Below are positions 3,055 through 36,042 of a DNA stretch of 47,664 nt, in pieces; the first letter of the stretch is position 1, and every line of letters starts with the position of its first letter. Origin of the DNA: Nitrospira sp. GTDB taxonomy: Bacteria > Nitrospirota > Nitrospiria > Nitrospirales > Nitrospiraceae. The DNA lies in the NCBI GenBank assembly GCA_023248215.1, contig JAHFEW010000027.1, positions 1 to 47,664 on the forward strand. The letters are read 5' to 3'. The translations under genes were made by a program, and so were the position numbers. Under the pieces are notes generated by a model that saw only the letters and a program-made list of their open reading frames with translations, did no database searches and was not told where the DNA came from.

Positions 3055-3106
3055 GGCGATATCATAACAAAATGCGCCTGACGGGAACAGCTCACGTTGG
3101 TGTGAT

Positions 3107-3586
3107 ATGACCAAAACTCACGACAAAGAAGATCAATATAAAGTGGTCGCCACCAACCGCAAGGCCTACCACGACTATTTCATCGAGGAGAAGTTCGAGG
3201 CTGGTGTCATCTTGCGGGGGACCGAGGTGAAATCCCTGCGAGAAGGACGGGTCAATCTGCAAGACAGCTATGCGTCGCTCGATGGCGACGAAGTCTATCT
3301 GCAGCATTGCCACATCAGCCCCTACTCGCATGGCAATCTTTCGAACCATGATCCCCTGCGTAAGCGAAAGCTCCTGCTCCATCGCAAGGAAATCAATAAG
3401 CTGATGGGGAAAACCCAACTGAAGGGCCTGACCCTCGTCCCCTTGCGCATCTACTTCTCGAAGCGCGGCCACGCGAAGGTGGAGTTAGCCTTGGCGAAGG
3501 GGAAAAAGCAATACGATCGTCGCGAAACCATTAAGGCCCGTGAAGCCAGCCGCGAAGTTGAACGGGCGATCAAACAAAAGAAGTAA
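3107..3586 (+). CDS. smpB: SsrA-binding protein SmpB
   Basis: SmpB binds the tRNA-like end of tmRNA and brings it to stalled ribosomes for trans-translation. The 159-residue protein has the usual length and motifs: an oligonucleotide-binding barrel with EAGVILRGTEVKSLREGRVNLQDSY, then RKLLLH and the YFSKRGHAKVELALAKGKKQYDRR region, and a basic C-terminal tail ending in KQKK that enters the decoding site. It diverges from the DUF721 gene with about 50 bases between the two ATGs. Its RNA partner ssrA is in the same window at 35692-36042, not adjacent as in many genomes. Confidence 0.97.
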   Translation: MTKTHDKEDQYKVVATNRKAYHDYFIEEKFEAGVILRGTEVKSLREGRVNLQDSYASLDGDEVYLQHCHISPYSHGNLSNHDPLRKRKLLLHRKEINKLMGKTQLKGLTLVPLRIYFSKRGHAKVELALAKGKKQYDRRETIKAREASREVERAIKQKK

Positions 3587-13736: not shown

Positions 13737-15065
13737 ATGAGCGAAGGAGGGAGAATAGACCAGGCGGGCAGCGTCAGCGGGCGCCGAGAGGAAATGCGTC
13801 CGGAAGAATGGCAAGAGGTGAATCGACGCACGTTCTTAGCCGGCAGTGCCTCCCTGATGGCGTTGGGAGCAGCTGGGCTTGTGTTTGGTAACGCGAACGC
13901 GGATGAGGCTGATCAGGCGAGGGATCCGATGCGCGTGCCGGGAACGTTGCCACGACCCTATGGTGAACGCTCGCCGTTTGAGAAGCTGACACGTTTGGGA
14001 GGAGCCGGACCGGAAGCCCTCCATGGCTGGGGCGCCAATGCCCCGAATAACTTCAATTCGCTCACACCGCTTCAGGATCTGCACGGAATTATCACACCGG
14101 CCTCTCTGCACTTTGAGCGGCACCATAACGGAGTCCCTGCCATCGATCCAGCCCGCCATCGCTTACTGGTTCATGGGCTCGCCGAGCGGTCCTTGCTTTT
14201 CACCGTGGAAGAGCTGAAACGGCTCCCGGCTGTCGCGCGGCTCGCGTTCATCGAATGTTCGGGCAACACATGGGATGGTTGGCGAGAGGCGCAAGACGTC
14301 ACCGTTCAAGACACGCATGGGTTGACGAGCAACAGTGAATGGACAGGGGTCAAGCTTTCGACCCTGCTTAAGGCGGTCGGCGCTCGACGCGAGGCGACAT
14401 GGATGCTGGCCGAAGGGAGCGATGCTTCCGGCCTGAATCGAAGTGTCCCTCTTACCAATGACGTGCTGAACGACGCCATGATCTGCTACGGCCAAAATGG
14501 AGAAGCGTTACGTCCCGAGCAGGGGTATCCGCTGAGGCTCTTGCTCCCAGGTTTGGAAGGCAACATCAATGTGAAATGGCTCCGGCGGCTCAAGCTCGGG
14601 TCGGCGCCATTCATGACGCGTTGGGAGACGGCCAAGTATACGGACCTGATGCCGGATGGAAAGGCCTATCAATTTAGTTTGGTGATGGAGGCCAAGTCGG
14701 TGATTACCTCTCCTTCCGGCCAACAGCAGATTCAACCAGGCTTTCATGAAATCCGAGGGCTGGCGTGGAGCGGGCGAGGGCGAGTGACGAAGGTTGAGGT
14801 GAGCGTAGACGGAGGACACACGTGGCAAGGTGCGCAGCTTCAGGAGCCCGTGCTTCCGAAGTGTCACACCCGATTCCGGTTCCCGTGGCAATGGCATGGA
14901 CAAGAGGCCATCTTGCAAAGCCGATGTGTAGATGAGACAGGCTATATCCAGCCGACACGCCAGGAACTGGTGAAGGTGCGGGGAACGAATTCGCTCTACC
15001 ACTACAATGCCATTCAAAGCTGGAGGGTAGAACGCGATGGAAGGGTACGAAACATCTATGCATAG
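13737..15065 (+). CDS. soxC: SoxC-like / sulfite-oxidase-family molybdopterin enzyme
   Basis: A 442-residue periplasmic molybdoenzyme. It has a twin-arginine signal (NRRTFLAG, arginines 30-31) with a hydrophobic stretch to about residue 51. The molybdenum-ligating cysteine is C174 in FIECSGNTWDG. A C-terminal Ig-like dimerisation domain contains VEVSVDGGHTWQGAQL. Layout and the following c-type cytochrome match SoxC-SoxD (sulfane dehydrogenase) or sulfite:cytochrome c oxidoreductase pairs. GGGAGGAGG precedes the ATG. No soxXYZAB is in the window, so sulfite or another oxyanion is as likely as thiosulfate-bound sulfane. Its TAG stop shares its G with the start of a palindromic repeat. Confidence 0.85.
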   Translation: MSEGGRIDQAGSVSGRREEMRPEEWQEVNRRTFLAGSASLMALGAAGLVFGNANADEADQARDPMRVPGTLPRPYGERSPFEKLTRLGGAGPEALHGWGANAPNNFNSLTPLQDLHGIITPASLHFERHHNGVPAIDPARHRLLVHGLAERSLLFTVEELKRLPAVARLAFIECSGNTWDGWREAQDVTVQDTHGLTSNSEWTGVKLSTLLKAVGARREATWMLAEGSDASGLNRSVPLTNDVLNDAMICYGQNGEALRPEQGYPLRLLLPGLEGNINVKWLRRLKLGSAPFMTRWETAKYTDLMPDGKAYQFSLVMEAKSVITSPSGQQQIQPGFHEIRGLAWSGRGRVTKVEVSVDGGHTWQGAQLQEPVLPKCHTRFRFPWQWHGQEAILQSRCVDETGYIQPTRQELVKVRGTNSLYHYNAIQSWRVERDGRVRNIYA

Positions 15066-15190
15066 CAGGATGTTGAAAAAGTCCGCCAGCTTTGTTCTCG
15101 CATCGCTCAGAGGCTCAACGTACGAGACAAAGTACGCTTCCCCTCTTCGCTCGCTGCGGCCTCGCTGGACGGCCATTTTGAACATCCTGC
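15065..15190. repeat. Long imperfect palindrome, family 1, copy 1
   Basis: A 126-base element whose ends are near-perfect inverted repeats: it begins GCAGGATGTTGAAAAAG and ends with the complement-like TTTTGAACATCCTGC, with inner arms CGTAC/GTACG. As RNA it folds into one long hairpin. Related copies are at 22497-22735 and 35564-35683. It lies between soxC and its cytochrome partner, starting on the last base of the soxC stop and ending 11 bases before the cytochrome ATG. Confidence 0.85.
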
Positions 15191-22113: not shown

Positions 22114-22497
22114 ATGAGAAGACGCAATATTTCGACCGGGGGGCCATGGGAAGGCAAGATCGGCTATTCGCGGGCGGTGAGGGTCGGCCGGTCCGTGCAG
22201 GTCTCCGGGACGACCGCCATGACGCCGACGGGACTCGTCGGCAAGGGCGATCCCTACGCACAGACTATTCAAACGCTGAAGACGATTGAAGCGGCGCTCG
22301 CACAGGCCGGCGCGTCGATGGCGGATGTGGTCCGGACACGCATCTATATGGCGAACATCGAGCAATGGCAGGAAGTGGGCCGGGCGCATGGCGAAGTGTT
22401 CGGTTCGATCAGACCGGCGACGACCATGGTGGAGGTGAAGCGCTTGATCGATCCGGACATGCTGGTCGAGATCGAAGCCGATGCGATCACGGCCTAG
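22114..22497 (+). CDS. RidA/YjgF/YER057c/UK114 family protein
   Basis: A 127-residue member of the RidA superfamily, which hydrolyses reactive enamine/imine intermediates or related compounds. Motifs include the strand VQVSGTTAMTP, then QTLKTIEAALAQAGASMADVVRTRIYM with the conserved arginine, and PATTMVEVKRLIDPDMLVEIEADA. Subfamily is uncertain. CACAGGAGG precedes ATG 22114. The TAG stop shares its G with the first base of palindromic repeat copy 2. Confidence 0.9.
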   Translation: MRRRNISTGGPWEGKIGYSRAVRVGRSVQVSGTTAMTPTGLVGKGDPYAQTIQTLKTIEAALAQAGASMADVVRTRIYMANIEQWQEVGRAHGEVFGSIRPATTMVEVKRLIDPDMLVEIEADAITA

Positions 22498-22735
22498 CAG
22501 GATGCGGAAAAAGTCCGCCAGCGGCGTTCTCGCATCACTCAGAGGCTCACCGTACGGCTCACGGGAAAAGAGCCTGTCTGGGCAGGCTCGGGGCGGGTGG
22601 GTAAGATGATGTGGCTTCGCCTCCAAGACACTGCCGGCTCACCGTCTCGCCGGCGTCCACACACGTGGCGCTCATTATTCTTCGCGCCGTGGACCTCGCT
22701 GCGGCCTTGCTGGACGGTCTTTTTGCGCATCCTGC
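22497..22735. repeat. Long imperfect palindrome, family 1, copy 2 (expanded centre)
   Basis: Ends match copy 1 (GCAGGATGCGGAAAAAGTCC at the left, GCGCATCCTGC at the right; inner blocks CTCAGAGGCTCA and CTCGCTGCGGCC). The centre carries roughly 110 additional bases, making it 239 bases long. As in copy 1, its first base is the G of an upstream TAG stop codon. Confidence 0.8.
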
Positions 22736-29462: not shown

Positions 29463-30410
29463 ATGAATGCCTTACAATTCCTCGCGGACCATGGTGCGAC
29501 GGTGCTCTTCTGGGTGATTTTCGTCGAGCAGATCGGCCTGCCTATTCCAGCCATACCCCTCCTCATCGCGGCTGGTGCGCTCGTCGGAGCCGGCAAGATG
29601 ACGGTCGCCACAGCGCTGCTCGTTCCGGTTGCGGCCTCGCTTCCGCCGGACCTCGCCTGGTACTACCTCGGTCGTATCAAGGGCGGGAAGGTGCTGGGGT
29701 TTCTTTGTCGTCTGTCCCTTGAGCCGGATTCGTGTGTCAGAGACACGGAGAATGTGTTCCATAGAAACGGACCGCGGGCCCTGCTACTCGCGAAATTCAT
29801 TCCCGGTTTCAGCACGGTGGCTCCGCCTCTCGCCGGTATTGTCGGCATGAGCGCCGCGACGTTTATTCTGTACGATGTGGGGGGCACCCTTATCTGGGCG
29901 GGCGTGAGCGCCGGAGTTGGGGCGCTGTTCAGCAATCAACTGGAGCATCTGGTCGGACTGTTCGATCAGGCCCGTGGGTTGGTGCTCACGATTCTGCTTA
30001 CCGCGGTGGGGGGATTCATCGGGTATAAGTACTATCATCGGCAGAAGTTCTTGCGGCACCTGCGGATGGCTAAGATTTCCGTGGAGGAACTCAAGCGACG
30101 TTTGGACGACGGAGATGCCATCAGCGTGGTCGATGTTCGGCATCCGCTCGCCCTGGAACTCGATCCGGAGACTATTCCAGGCGCCATCAACTTCACGATG
30201 GAGGAGATTGAGCATCGCCATCACGAAATCCCGCGGGACCGAGACATCGTGCTGTACTGCACCTGCCCGAACGAAGTGTCGAGTGCCCGGACGGCGTTCT
30301 TGTTGAAAAAGAAAGGCATCCATCGAGTGCGTCCGCTCGAAGGCGGGCTTGATGCTTGGCGCGAACGAAAGTTTCCGGTGGAGCGACGTTCTTCTAACCC
30401 TACCGTTTAG
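29463..30410 (+). CDS. DedA-family membrane protein fused to rhodanese domain
   Basis: A 315-residue two-part protein. Residues 1-190 are a DedA/SNARE-associated (VTT) domain with FWVIFVEQIGLPIPAIPLLIAAGAL, the conserved KFIPGFSTVAPPLAG loop and several membrane helices. From about residue 205 a rhodanese domain follows (VVDVRHP, then YCTCPNEVSSARTAFLL with the active cysteine, GGLDAWRERKFPVE). DedA proteins move undecaprenyl phosphate or phospholipids, or affect proton-motive force; the rhodanese may link this to sulfur or redox state. A truncated relative of the rhodanese part is at 33157-33423. Confidence 0.92.
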   Translation: MNALQFLADHGATVLFWVIFVEQIGLPIPAIPLLIAAGALVGAGKMTVATALLVPVAASLPPDLAWYYLGRIKGGKVLGFLCRLSLEPDSCVRDTENVFHRNGPRALLLAKFIPGFSTVAPPLAGIVGMSAATFILYDVGGTLIWAGVSAGVGALFSNQLEHLVGLFDQARGLVLTILLTAVGGFIGYKYYHRQKFLRHLRMAKISVEELKRRLDDGDAISVVDVRHPLALELDPETIPGAINFTMEEIEHRHHEIPRDRDIVLYCTCPNEVSSARTAFLLKKKGIHRVRPLEGGLDAWRERKFPVERRSSNPTV

Positions 30411-33156: not shown

Positions 33157-33423
33157 CTGGAGCGCGATTCTGAGACCATTCTTGGTGCGATCGACTTCAC
33201 GATGGAAGAGATCCAGCACCGGCATCACGAAATTCCGCGCGACCGGGACATTGTCCTCTACTGTTCCTGCCCGAACGAAGTCTCCAGCGCCAGGACCGCC
33301 CGGCTCCTGAAAAAGAAGGGCATTCACCGCATACGCCCGCCGGAAGGCGGCCTCGATGCCTGGCGCGAACGGAAGTTTCCGGTGGAGCGACACCTTTCGA
33401 AATCTTCAGTCGAGCCCAACTAG
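33157..33423 (+). pseudogene. 5'-truncated DedA-rhodanese paralogue (rhodanese part only)
   Basis: About 88 codons align almost without gaps to the last part of the DedA-rhodanese fusion at 29463: ETILGAIDFTMEEI, HRHHEIPRDRDIVLYC, SCPNEVSSARTARLLKKKG and LDAWRERKFPVERH. DNA differences are mostly at third positions, so it comes from a paralogue that was long under selection. The membrane part and the start of the rhodanese domain are missing. An internal ATG (33202) exists but has no Shine-Dalgarno. Confidence 0.75.
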
Positions 33424-33519: not shown

Positions 33520-33552
33520 ATGGGCTCCGCAGGTTCAACCTGCGGAGCCCAT
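33520..33552 (-). terminator. Strong terminator for the dCTP deaminase operon
   Basis: A perfect 16-bp stem (33520-33535 with 33537-33552) and one-base loop, with arms beginning ATGGGCTCCGC. On the minus strand it is followed by TTTTATTT. It lies about 30 bases beyond the stop of the 60-residue gene. Confidence 0.85.
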
Positions 33553-33583
33553 AGTTTGAAGCCAAATCTGAGGAGAAAGTGAG

Positions 33584-33766
33584 CTAGCCTTTTCTAACCG
33601 ACCCACTAGAACAGCTTTGTCCTCCTGACCCCTGACTTGAATCAACGCTCTGGCGTATTGTCTCCTTGGTTTCGTTGGTTTTCATCCAAGAAGGCCACTT
33701 ATCAACTTCCTGACGAACCTGCTCTAACCCCTCCTTTAGCGACCCTGTTTTAGATGGTTTACTCAT
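33584..33766 (-). CDS. Small protein downstream of the anti-phage dCTP deaminase
   Basis: A 60-residue protein that is polar and has no signal peptide. Its core SLKEGLEQVRQEVDKWPSWM contains a WPSW motif of a kind I recall in small proteins beside defence genes. The C-terminal 15 residues are Ser/Gly-rich. AGGGGGG precedes ATG 33766. It starts 16 bases after the deaminase stop and ends before the terminator at 33520, so it is the second gene of a two-gene operon. Function is unknown; a regulator or inhibitor of the deaminase is a reasonable hypothesis. Confidence 0.65.
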   Translation of the reverse strand: MSKPSKTGSLKEGLEQVRQEVDKWPSWMKTNETKETIRQSVDSSQGSGGQSCSSGSVRKG

Positions 33767-33782
33767 AGCATGCCCCCCTGTG

Positions 33783-35342
33783 CTATTGAACAAGATGAAG
33801 CCCTTTCTGCTCTCTAATTCTCTCAAAAAGAGCAACGGCATCTTTTTCTTTATAAAGATAGGATAGTACGGGTTGTGCGTATCTGGGAAGAGCGTGAGAC
33901 TTATCCCACGGAATCAAGCTTCCGTCAATACCCTTTCGTTCGTTTGCGGTAAACAGGTCCATATAACGAGTCGGAGCAATGCCTACAAACTGCTCAAATC
34001 GGACTTTGCGTGGTATTTCCTCGTGAGGATCAACAATGATTGAGTCCTTGTGAAAGTCTAGTGCCAAACTTTTCGGATATGGCTCTATGTAAGCTACTCT
34101 CTTAATGCCAGAAGCGACGATGTGCCGAGCGCAATCATGGCAGGGAAACGTAGTTGTGTACATCGTGGAATTCTTAACAGCAACACCACGTGACGCCGCG
34201 TCGAGTAGTGCTGCCATTTCAGCGTGCACACATCTGCCAAACTCTATAAGGCTCATCAACCGTGAGCTCTTAACCAATGGTAAGGCTTCCTTTACGAGAT
34301 CACCCGTGTCCACTTTTGCCTTTGCGTCGACGAACCACCCGTGTTTTTGTAGGCTCTCGAGTATCTCCGCGAACTGAACCCTTTTCATTTCATCACTGGT
34401 GTCCTTGCCATCCTTGTAATCCCGATGATCGTCCGGGCCAGGCCAATAGAGCCCCCCACCAAAATTTGGCACGTCATTGGTTCCAAGCGCGATGATGTCT
34501 CCATTATCGGTGGAGATGGCAGCACCTACTTGCCTTCCAAGGGCAGCTGATCGAAGGGCAGCACCTCGTGCGAGAGACATTCCATATTCATCCCGGGATG
34601 GAGTATAAATCTCCTCAGTGTTGTTGAAAATAAGCTCTATGAAGCGGGAGACAGCATCCTTCACATTGTTCTTATCTGTGACGTTAATGAACACATCAGC
34701 GAGTGGGAACGTCTCTCGAAGATTCTGACCCAACTTCTTGTCAGGCTCGGCTTGATCCAAATCCAAAATCTCTGTGGCAACCGAGCCGAATTTGGTAGCC
34801 GCTTGACCCGTTGAATGATGAGACGAGGCGATTTTCTTTGTGAAATCTCTTAACCGGGTATCATGCGGAGAATATGCGGCGAGTAAGTAAAAATTGGGCC
34901 CATATACATCACGCAGCAACTTAACTTCCTGAGGGTGCTTCAAGGACCTTAATACATAGGCGCATCGGGAAATGGGCTCATCCGAGTCATTGTTTGCACT
35001 CGAAGGTTTGCGATGTTTCTCTCTAATCACAGCGATTAATAGTCTGGCCAGTGCATCGCCCAACTCAAATGCCTCTCGAAATTCATCACCAGCTCGAATG
35101 TGAAATTTGTATCGGTCTTCTAGTGGCTTCTCTGGGAGGGTTTTCCAGCGCTCGAACAGATGAATTTGTTCAATGACATGGATCGATTTGTATTGATAGC
35201 TTACTTGGGAGAGGCTCTCAGCAAGAGCTTTGCTGAGCACATCAAGGTCGGCCCCCACAGCACCAACTAGTCCGAAAAACAGTTCAGGGTCTTTAGGCCC
35301 CGAAACCACTTTTTGAGTCTTCTTTTGAAGAGGTGTATCCAT
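33783..35342 (-). CDS. Anti-phage dCTP deaminase (DcdV/AvcD-type)
   Basis: A 519-residue two-domain protein of the family shown in Vibrio and E. coli to deplete deoxycytidine nucleotides during phage infection. The N-terminal domain has a P-loop-kinase-like fold with a divergent loop (FFGLVGAVGADLD, about residues 22-34, without the usual GK[ST]). The C-terminal cytidine/dCMP-deaminase domain carries the zinc site HAE (373-375) and PCHDC (400-404). Codon use is more A+T-rich than in neighbours, suggesting transfer. No Shine-Dalgarno precedes the ATG. In Vibrio an RNA upstream of the gene restrains the enzyme; here a membrane microprotein frame overlaps its start. Confidence 0.9.
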   Translation of the reverse strand: MDTPLQKKTQKVVSGPKDPELFFGLVGAVGADLDVLSKALAESLSQVSYQYKSIHVIEQIHLFERWKTLPEKPLEDRYKFHIRAGDEFREAFELGDALARLLIAVIREKHRKPSSANNDSDEPISRCAYVLRSLKHPQEVKLLRDVYGPNFYLLAAYSPHDTRLRDFTKKIASSHHSTGQAATKFGSVATEILDLDQAEPDKKLGQNLRETFPLADVFINVTDKNNVKDAVSRFIELIFNNTEEIYTPSRDEYGMSLARGAALRSAALGRQVGAAISTDNGDIIALGTNDVPNFGGGLYWPGPDDHRDYKDGKDTSDEMKRVQFAEILESLQKHGWFVDAKAKVDTGDLVKEALPLVKSSRLMSLIEFGRCVHAEMAALLDAASRGVAVKNSTMYTTTFPCHDCARHIVASGIKRVAYIEPYPKSLALDFHKDSIIVDPHEEIPRKVRFEQFVGIAPTRYMDLFTANERKGIDGSLIPWDKSHALPRYAQPVLSYLYKEKDAVALFERIREQKGLHLVQ

Positions 35343-35397
35343 ATCGAGCGATAAAAAGGATGACAGCCGCGATGATTATGGCGAAATCCAATATCAT
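35293..35397 (-). other. 34-codon membrane microprotein frame overlapping the deaminase start
   Basis: From ATG 35397 a frame encodes MILDFAIIIAAVILFIAR (a hydrophobic helix) followed by a polar tail ending KSGFGA and TAA at 35293. It overlaps the first 50 bases of the deaminase gene in another frame. There is no obvious Shine-Dalgarno. The membrane-helix-plus-basic-anchor pattern is convincing as a peptide, but translation is unproven. Confidence 0.3.
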
Positions 35398-35563
35398 TTA
35401 CATCACGAATTTAACAGAATTGCACACTTAGGATGAGGGAGATGCCAGTATTTGTGTTGGTTACGCCATGTCTGGTATCCCCTTGACCTGTGCTGTATGA
35501 TGAGCACCTAGGAAAGAGCACAGAGCTGATGGCGTATGGCCGATAGCCAAGCCGAAGATCTTG

Positions 35564-35683
35564 AGGATGTTCAAAAAGGTCTTGTGGCAAGGCCGCAGCA
35601 AGCGAAGGGGCGAGTCGTACTGTTTCTGTACGTCGAGCCTCGGAGCGAAGCGAGAACGCAGCCAGAAGCCTTTTTCAACATCC
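35564..35683. repeat. Long imperfect palindrome, family 1, copy 3 (inverted orientation)
   Basis: A 120-base element beginning AGGATGTTCAAAAAGGTC and ending TTTTTCAACATCC. Read on the other strand it follows copy 1 block by block (CGTTCTCGC, GAGGCTCGACGTAC, CTGCGGCCTTG). It ends eight bases before the first base of ssrA, so it occupies the place where the tmRNA promoter would be expected. Confidence 0.82.
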
Positions 35684-35691
35684 GACTGAAA

Positions 35692-36042
35692 GGGGGCGAC
35701 CGGTTTCGACGGGGATACTGATGCCATCGTCGCATGTCGAGCTCTCGGGGTCTCGTAAATCCTCCGGGAAAATGCAACTGCCAATCAAGAACTGGCACTC
35801 GCAGCTTAATTTAAGCTGAGACGTCGTTCCATCTGAGGCCCGCGGGGGTGGAATGGCGCGATGCAGCGGGCTGGTCCAACGTCGGTGCTCAGCGGCGGTG
35901 GATGAGACAATACTGTGCTAGCGGCGATTCTAAGCCTGCCGATAGGCGTGGGTCGTTGCGAAACTCAAAGAATCGGCTACACATGTAGACGCGATGAGCC
36001 GACGATCTTCGGACAGGGGTTCAACTCCCCTCGCCTCCACCA
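35692..36042 (+). ncRNA. ssrA: Transfer-messenger RNA (tmRNA)
   Basis: A one-piece 351-base tmRNA. The 5' GGGGGCGACCGGTTTCGACG is the universal start; its first eight bases pair with TCGCCTCC before the 3' ACCA (36039-36042, CCA encoded). The T-arm is GGGGTTCAACTCCCC. The tag frame resumes at GCA 35774 and encodes ATANQELALAA, ending in TAA at 35807-35809. Together with SmpB it rescues stalled ribosomes and tags nascent chains for proteolysis. The promoter is not obvious, because repeat copy 3 lies directly upstream. Confidence 0.97.

Follow-up and report, generated by a model that had tools for sequence, protein, structure and literature searches.

An anti-phage dCTP deaminase gene of Nitrospira sp. 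is followed by a short gene for a conserved 60-residue protein in the window studied here, a stretch of 47,664 nucleotides (contig JAHFEW010000027.1). The reading that we favour, and that we hold to be about evenly poised, is that of a horizontally acquired two-gene dCTP-depletion module, in which the small downstream protein would be an inhibitor of the enzyme, doing the job of the AvcI RNA.

Organization of the locus

The deaminase ORF (33783..35342, minus strand) encodes 519 residues. Its stop codon is separated by 16 bp from the downstream ORF of the 60-residue protein (33584..33766, minus strand). Next comes an intrinsic terminator (33520..33552, minus strand) made of a perfect 15-bp stem followed by TTTATTT (dG -30.6, z -8.1). 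It is 91% conserved in L002, a Nitrospira MAG (palsa_1310) carrying the nearest relative of the deaminase, 94% identical. A sequence-only reading of this DNA had proposed a two-gene operon composed of the deaminase, a WPSW protein 16 bases further on and a strong terminator. All three elements are present, and the short gap and the shared terminator predict that the two genes are co-transcribed. With its small protein gene adjoining that of the enzyme and a conserved linkage, the layout is type II-like. Toxin-first gene order is the less usual one in type II toxin-antitoxin pairs. The upstream stretch yielded no sigma-70-type promoter; both of the reported sites fall within the deaminase gene, and chance would give as many.

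Identity of the deaminase

By its profile matches, the large protein is an anti-phage dCTP deaminase of the DcdV/AvcD family, as had been proposed from its motifs. It reaches 436.1 bits against NF041025 ('anti-phage dCTP deaminase', curated cut-off 400) and 511 bits with the PADLOC dCTPase model, and Pfam dCMP_cyt_deam_1 matches residues 249-418. The HAE (H373-A374-E375) and PCxxC (P400-C401-H402-D403-C404) motifs are in place, with H373, A374, E375, P400, C401 and C404 invariant in an alignment of 66 sequences. A structure model built from 61 sequences (pLDDT 91, pTM 0.90) matches, in the PDB, dCMP deaminases as well as an adenylate-kinase-related P-loop protein; searching the PDB with the sequence gave distant deaminase-domain relatives only. 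The architecture is that of an N-terminal, divergent P-loop kinase-like domain and a C-terminal zinc dCMP/dCTP deaminase domain. The divergence of the P-loop, also noted earlier, is borne out by the loop itself, GLVGAVGADLD, which lacks GK[ST].

Some relatives of the gene are altered. In the L002 deaminase (~1230-1311), the ATG of the window is replaced by ATT, and an in-frame stop lies upstream; translation may begin at this ATT, or the copy may be poorly expressed or in decay. In L015/L018 (G253), in-frame stops split the deaminase into two ORFs, and the W-type partner downstream is still intact.

The 60-codon ORF as a gene

The counterpart of the small ORF is found at the same place in L002, likewise beside tmRNA. 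Between the window and L002, DNA identity is 95.1% for the small ORF and 90.6% for the deaminase, as compared with 71% for the stretch between the small ORF and the terminator and 65% for the 129-bp deaminase leader. The small ORFs of the two loci differ by eight changes in all, most of them synonymous, with dS 0.148, dN 0.021 and dN/dS of about 0.14. Stronger evidence comes from the Burkholderiales pair L003/L005 (dS 1.7, dN 0.18, dN/dS 0.11). Judged from these substitutions, the 60-codon ORF is a real gene under protein-coding selection. In the model of its product, residues 7-22 form a fairly confident, amphipathic, one-faced helix, followed by the W motif (WPSWMK) and a low-confidence tail. 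Tails are highly variable among members of this family, called W-type hereafter.

Pfam, NCBIfam and PADLOC hold no model for the window protein, and tblastn of the 60-residue sequence against plasmids and phages found nothing. So far as could be found, the W-type protein is undescribed.

Linkage of W-type proteins to deaminases

The small protein had been put forward as a possible new partner of the enzyme. Conservation beside related deaminases had been set beforehand as the test of this proposal, and the protein recurs there. Small ORFs with the same motif lie directly downstream of other DcdV-type deaminases: in two more Nitrospirota genomes (L009, L018), on a plasmid of Vibrio nigripulchritudo (L024), on a 'Bacteriophage sp.' contig from the gut (L029) and on several IMG/VR contigs (L033, L041, L045, L046, L053/L054). 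Divergent members occur in Burkholderiales (L003-L005) and in L030, L039 and L171. The family thus spans Nitrospirota, a Vibrio plasmid, Burkholderiales and phage or prophage contigs. The partner starts about -58 to +50 bp from the deaminase stop and often overlaps it. Fusions of deaminase and partner were searched for and none was found.

At the deaminase loci examined, WP.W[KMR] is present in 12 of the 216 small ORFs directly downstream, against 3 of 5862 elsewhere. A signature common to the members runs as follows: position -10 is hydrophobic, position -7 is mostly small or valine, position -3 is again hydrophobic, and W-[PST]-x-[WSQ]-[KRM] comes after it. Over 78 dereplicated loci, this refined signature retrieves 17 of 121 downstream ORFs, the window and L002 both included, and 0 of 5335 elsewhere; it was drawn from the same sequences, which inflates its P value, and the simpler WP.W[KMR] count is the fairer one. 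The hydrophobic residues at -10 and -3 and the W, common to all relatives, delineate a one-faced, heptad helix.

Individual relatives used one by one as tblastn queries told little, hence the need for family-level profiles. Run over 296 Nitrospirota genomes, the profile gave three strong matches, all immediately downstream of a deaminase, the rest being at chance level. The idea that WPxWK proteins would be general hitchhikers was rejected on this ground. In the class of G297, 369 genomes, only five of which have a deaminase, yielded no true match, the one weak hit being antisense to an efflux-like gene; here the profile missed the divergent W-type partners at two of the five deaminase loci, L171 and L173 (the L003 locus). 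In these 665 sampled genomes, no convincing W-type copy was found away from a deaminase, an absence that is only as firm as the sensitivity of the profile because the L171 and L173 partners were missed. An independent profile, phrog_38465 (PHROG, function unassigned, 55 positions), recognizes 7 of the 11 W-type members, with a best E value of 1e-14, and picks up the window protein weakly (E 0.012 over residues 13-29); in the records tested, its sole match is the small ORF beside the deaminase.

Partner types across the deaminase tree

A maximum-likelihood tree of the deaminases was built with 75 rows and partner labels were assigned by eye. W-type partners fall in one large clade. Small proteins of an LDF type ('QLxLDF' start) occupy two neighbouring groups. 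One well-supported clade has DUF488-like partners of about 175 residues, whose DUF488 match is below the Pfam cut-off. In the clade containing plasmid enzymes of E. coli and Klebsiella, nothing is found downstream, and five loci show an ORF of about 57-78 codons just upstream, at the AvcI position. These labels require 10 changes on the tree, as compared with 32.8 in shuffles; as labelled, partner type follows the deaminase tree. One group of 20 rows inside the larger W clade has no recognizable partner, either upstream or downstream.

Several details of the other partners deserve mention. Small ORFs follow the deaminases of other branches (L008, L061-L063, L071, L073, L075, L079, L087, L090 and L091); several of them share a 'QLxLDF'-like N-terminus and an 'EIVRSVEHI'-like C-terminus. 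A DUF488-like gene follows the deaminase in L010, L012, L013, L072, L081 and L082, and is possibly another unrecorded partner type. The upstream ORFs of the E. coli/Klebsiella-type clade (L026, L028, L060, L066, L093) end with [AS]-x-x-[IL]-x-W-stop or close to it. The AvcI-position region of this clade may also be a conserved peptide gene.

It may be imagined that regulators of DcdV/AvcD enzymes are interchangeable and clade-specific (W-type, LDF-type, DUF488-like, or upstream RNA or ORF), a W-type protein antitoxin replacing the AvcI RNA. We place this broader view somewhat below even probability.

The leader region and the 34-codon frame

In the type III toxin-antitoxin system AvcID of Vibrio, the RNA antitoxin AvcI is located upstream of avcD (PMC9455884, PMC12409362). 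By analogy, control of the window enzyme by an upstream RNA, the small ORF then having an unrelated role, may be envisaged; the sequence-only reading had likewise suggested that an RNA or a peptide from 35293-35563 could regulate the enzyme. The block-specific leader (35343..35471, minus strand) is the least conserved part of the block between the window and L002: these 129 bp show the 65% identity given above, against 95% and 91% for the two genes. The RNA of the 35343-35563 stretch folds no better than shuffled sequences (z 0.14), and no Rfam match was found within it. On these grounds the candidate RNA regulator was set aside and this mode of control is judged very improbable, though the stretch may yet give rise to an unstructured RNA.

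A hydrophobic frame of 34 codons (35293..35397, minus strand), said to encode a membrane microprotein, overlaps the start of the deaminase. The frame is indeed open and has a hydrophobic stretch, which would suit a small membrane regulator. It is not conserved, however. In L002, where the deaminase, the small ORF and the terminator are kept, it is destroyed and an unrelated 25-codon frame stands in its place, so that the expected conservation beside related deaminases fails and the proposed regulatory peptide falls with it. No Pfam match above the cut-off was obtained for the frame. The microprotein was rejected as a partner, its role as regulator being largely refuted and its probability close to nil; the frame is judged to be a chance one.

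Acquisition of the block

The operon adjoins the tmRNA gene (ssrA, 35692..36042, plus strand), its divergent neighbour, as had been pointed out. A 42-bp element upstream of tmRNA (35472..35513, plus strand), conserved in most sampled Nitrospira, marks the tmRNA-side edge of the acquired block. The suggestion that the block is A+T-rich and looks acquired holds. Its G+C content is 47-49%, against 54-62% across nearly all the remaining window. In most other Nitrospira sampled, tmRNA and the 42-bp element are present without the block beside them (the search reaching 1.5 kb upstream). Few members of the genus carry a deaminase gene: of those sampled, the genome of the window and G247 do, and the partner in G247 is DUF488-like.

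In L002, a 25-bp part of the 42-bp element recurs as a direct repeat (1067-1105 and 3098-3126, 23/25 identical) at both ends of the block, one copy belonging to the element upstream of tmRNA. Duplication of a target or attachment site would leave such flanking repeats. The window retains the tmRNA-side copy alone.

Other repeated sequences lie nearby. Just beyond the terminator, at 33202-33423, the window has a truncated second copy of the end of a rhodanese gene, the full-length DedA-rhodanese gene being at 29463-30410; this copy looks like a scar of rearrangement. A further repeat, some 119 bp long and with inverted ends (GGATGTTGAAAAAG...CTTTTTGAACATCC) is found in the window at 35565-35683, 15060-15187 and 22492-22555, and in L002 at 3152-3269. 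It adjoins tmRNA in several Nitrospira genomes.

Possible mechanism and alternatives

In the model that we favour, the active deaminase would convert dCTP and dCMP to dUTP and dUMP, thereby starving phage DNA replication. The small protein would most likely dock on the deaminase through its conserved amphipathic helix and W-P-x-W-K/M motif. It would act as a protein inhibitor, or antitoxin, keeping the enzyme silent until infection. Upon infection, the small and partly disordered protein would disappear sooner than the enzyme. In this way it would stand in for the AvcI RNA of Vibrio. We infer that the two proteins bind, that the enzyme is inhibited and then released on infection, and that the window copy protects against phage. 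A protein inhibitor is favoured because the enzyme needs a brake, none can be seen upstream, the small protein constantly accompanies it and a precedent exists in Sofic-AS1, where the enzyme is neutralized by a 47-residue protein encoded downstream (PMC12249575). Against it stand the toxin-first gene order, the 20-row group without a partner, and L002, which has lost the ATG of its deaminase yet kept the small ORF.

The main rival is that of an activator, sensor or adaptor. The small protein would bind the deaminase or a phage product and switch the enzyme on or deliver it to phage replication, both genes being needed. Operon order, clade-specific linkage and the conserved helix fit this scheme equally well, and the highly variable tails could suit the sensing of a trigger. 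However, the AvcD enzymes characterized to date are kept in check by an inhibitor whose loss sets them free: AvcD of Vibrio is kept inactive by the AvcI RNA, which is lost once phage infection stops host transcription (PMC10511110). Moreover, over-production of AvcD without AvcI leads to filamentation of the cells (PMC9455884), so that the need known to exist is for an inhibitor. An activator or sensor is rather unlikely in our estimate. Still less probable is a stabilizer or assembly factor, a small subunit of the deaminase devoid of switching function. A conserved hydrophobic face and a fixed linkage would be expected of such a subunit, and DcdV-like enzymes of other clades manage without a W-type protein. 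Yet these clades differ in the type of partner rather than simply lacking one, which suits regulators better. Inhibition by the W-type protein is the reading that we favour.

Significance and comparison with known systems

In the accessible literature, control of dCTP-depleting defence enzymes is described for RNA-controlled members only, Vibrio AvcID being an example. In the open-access literature searched, no account of a protein that partners these deaminases came to light; one may have been published elsewhere. If another branch does rely on a conserved protein partner, this would be a second mode of control of the enzyme and would offer a convenient case in which to test how phage infection is sensed. 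Annotation tools having the deaminase model alone would score these systems as single genes.

The closest known system is AvcID/DcdV (NF041025; PADLOC dCTPase), to which the window enzyme is related by family, catalytic motifs and the association of P-loop and deaminase domains. The window enzyme belongs, however, to a branch other than that of the E. coli and Klebsiella plasmid enzymes, and its system has a downstream small protein gene and no detectable upstream RNA. phrog_38465, which recognizes W-type members, is a profile without function and makes no mention of a linkage to deaminases. Finally, Sofic-AS1, an anti-phage toxin with a Fic domain (PMC12249575), likewise combines a large anti-phage enzyme with a tiny protein gene placed after it. 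The Sofic enzyme is unrelated to the deaminase, and inhibition has been shown for AS1 whereas it is proposed for the W-type protein. The likeness is that of the gene layout.
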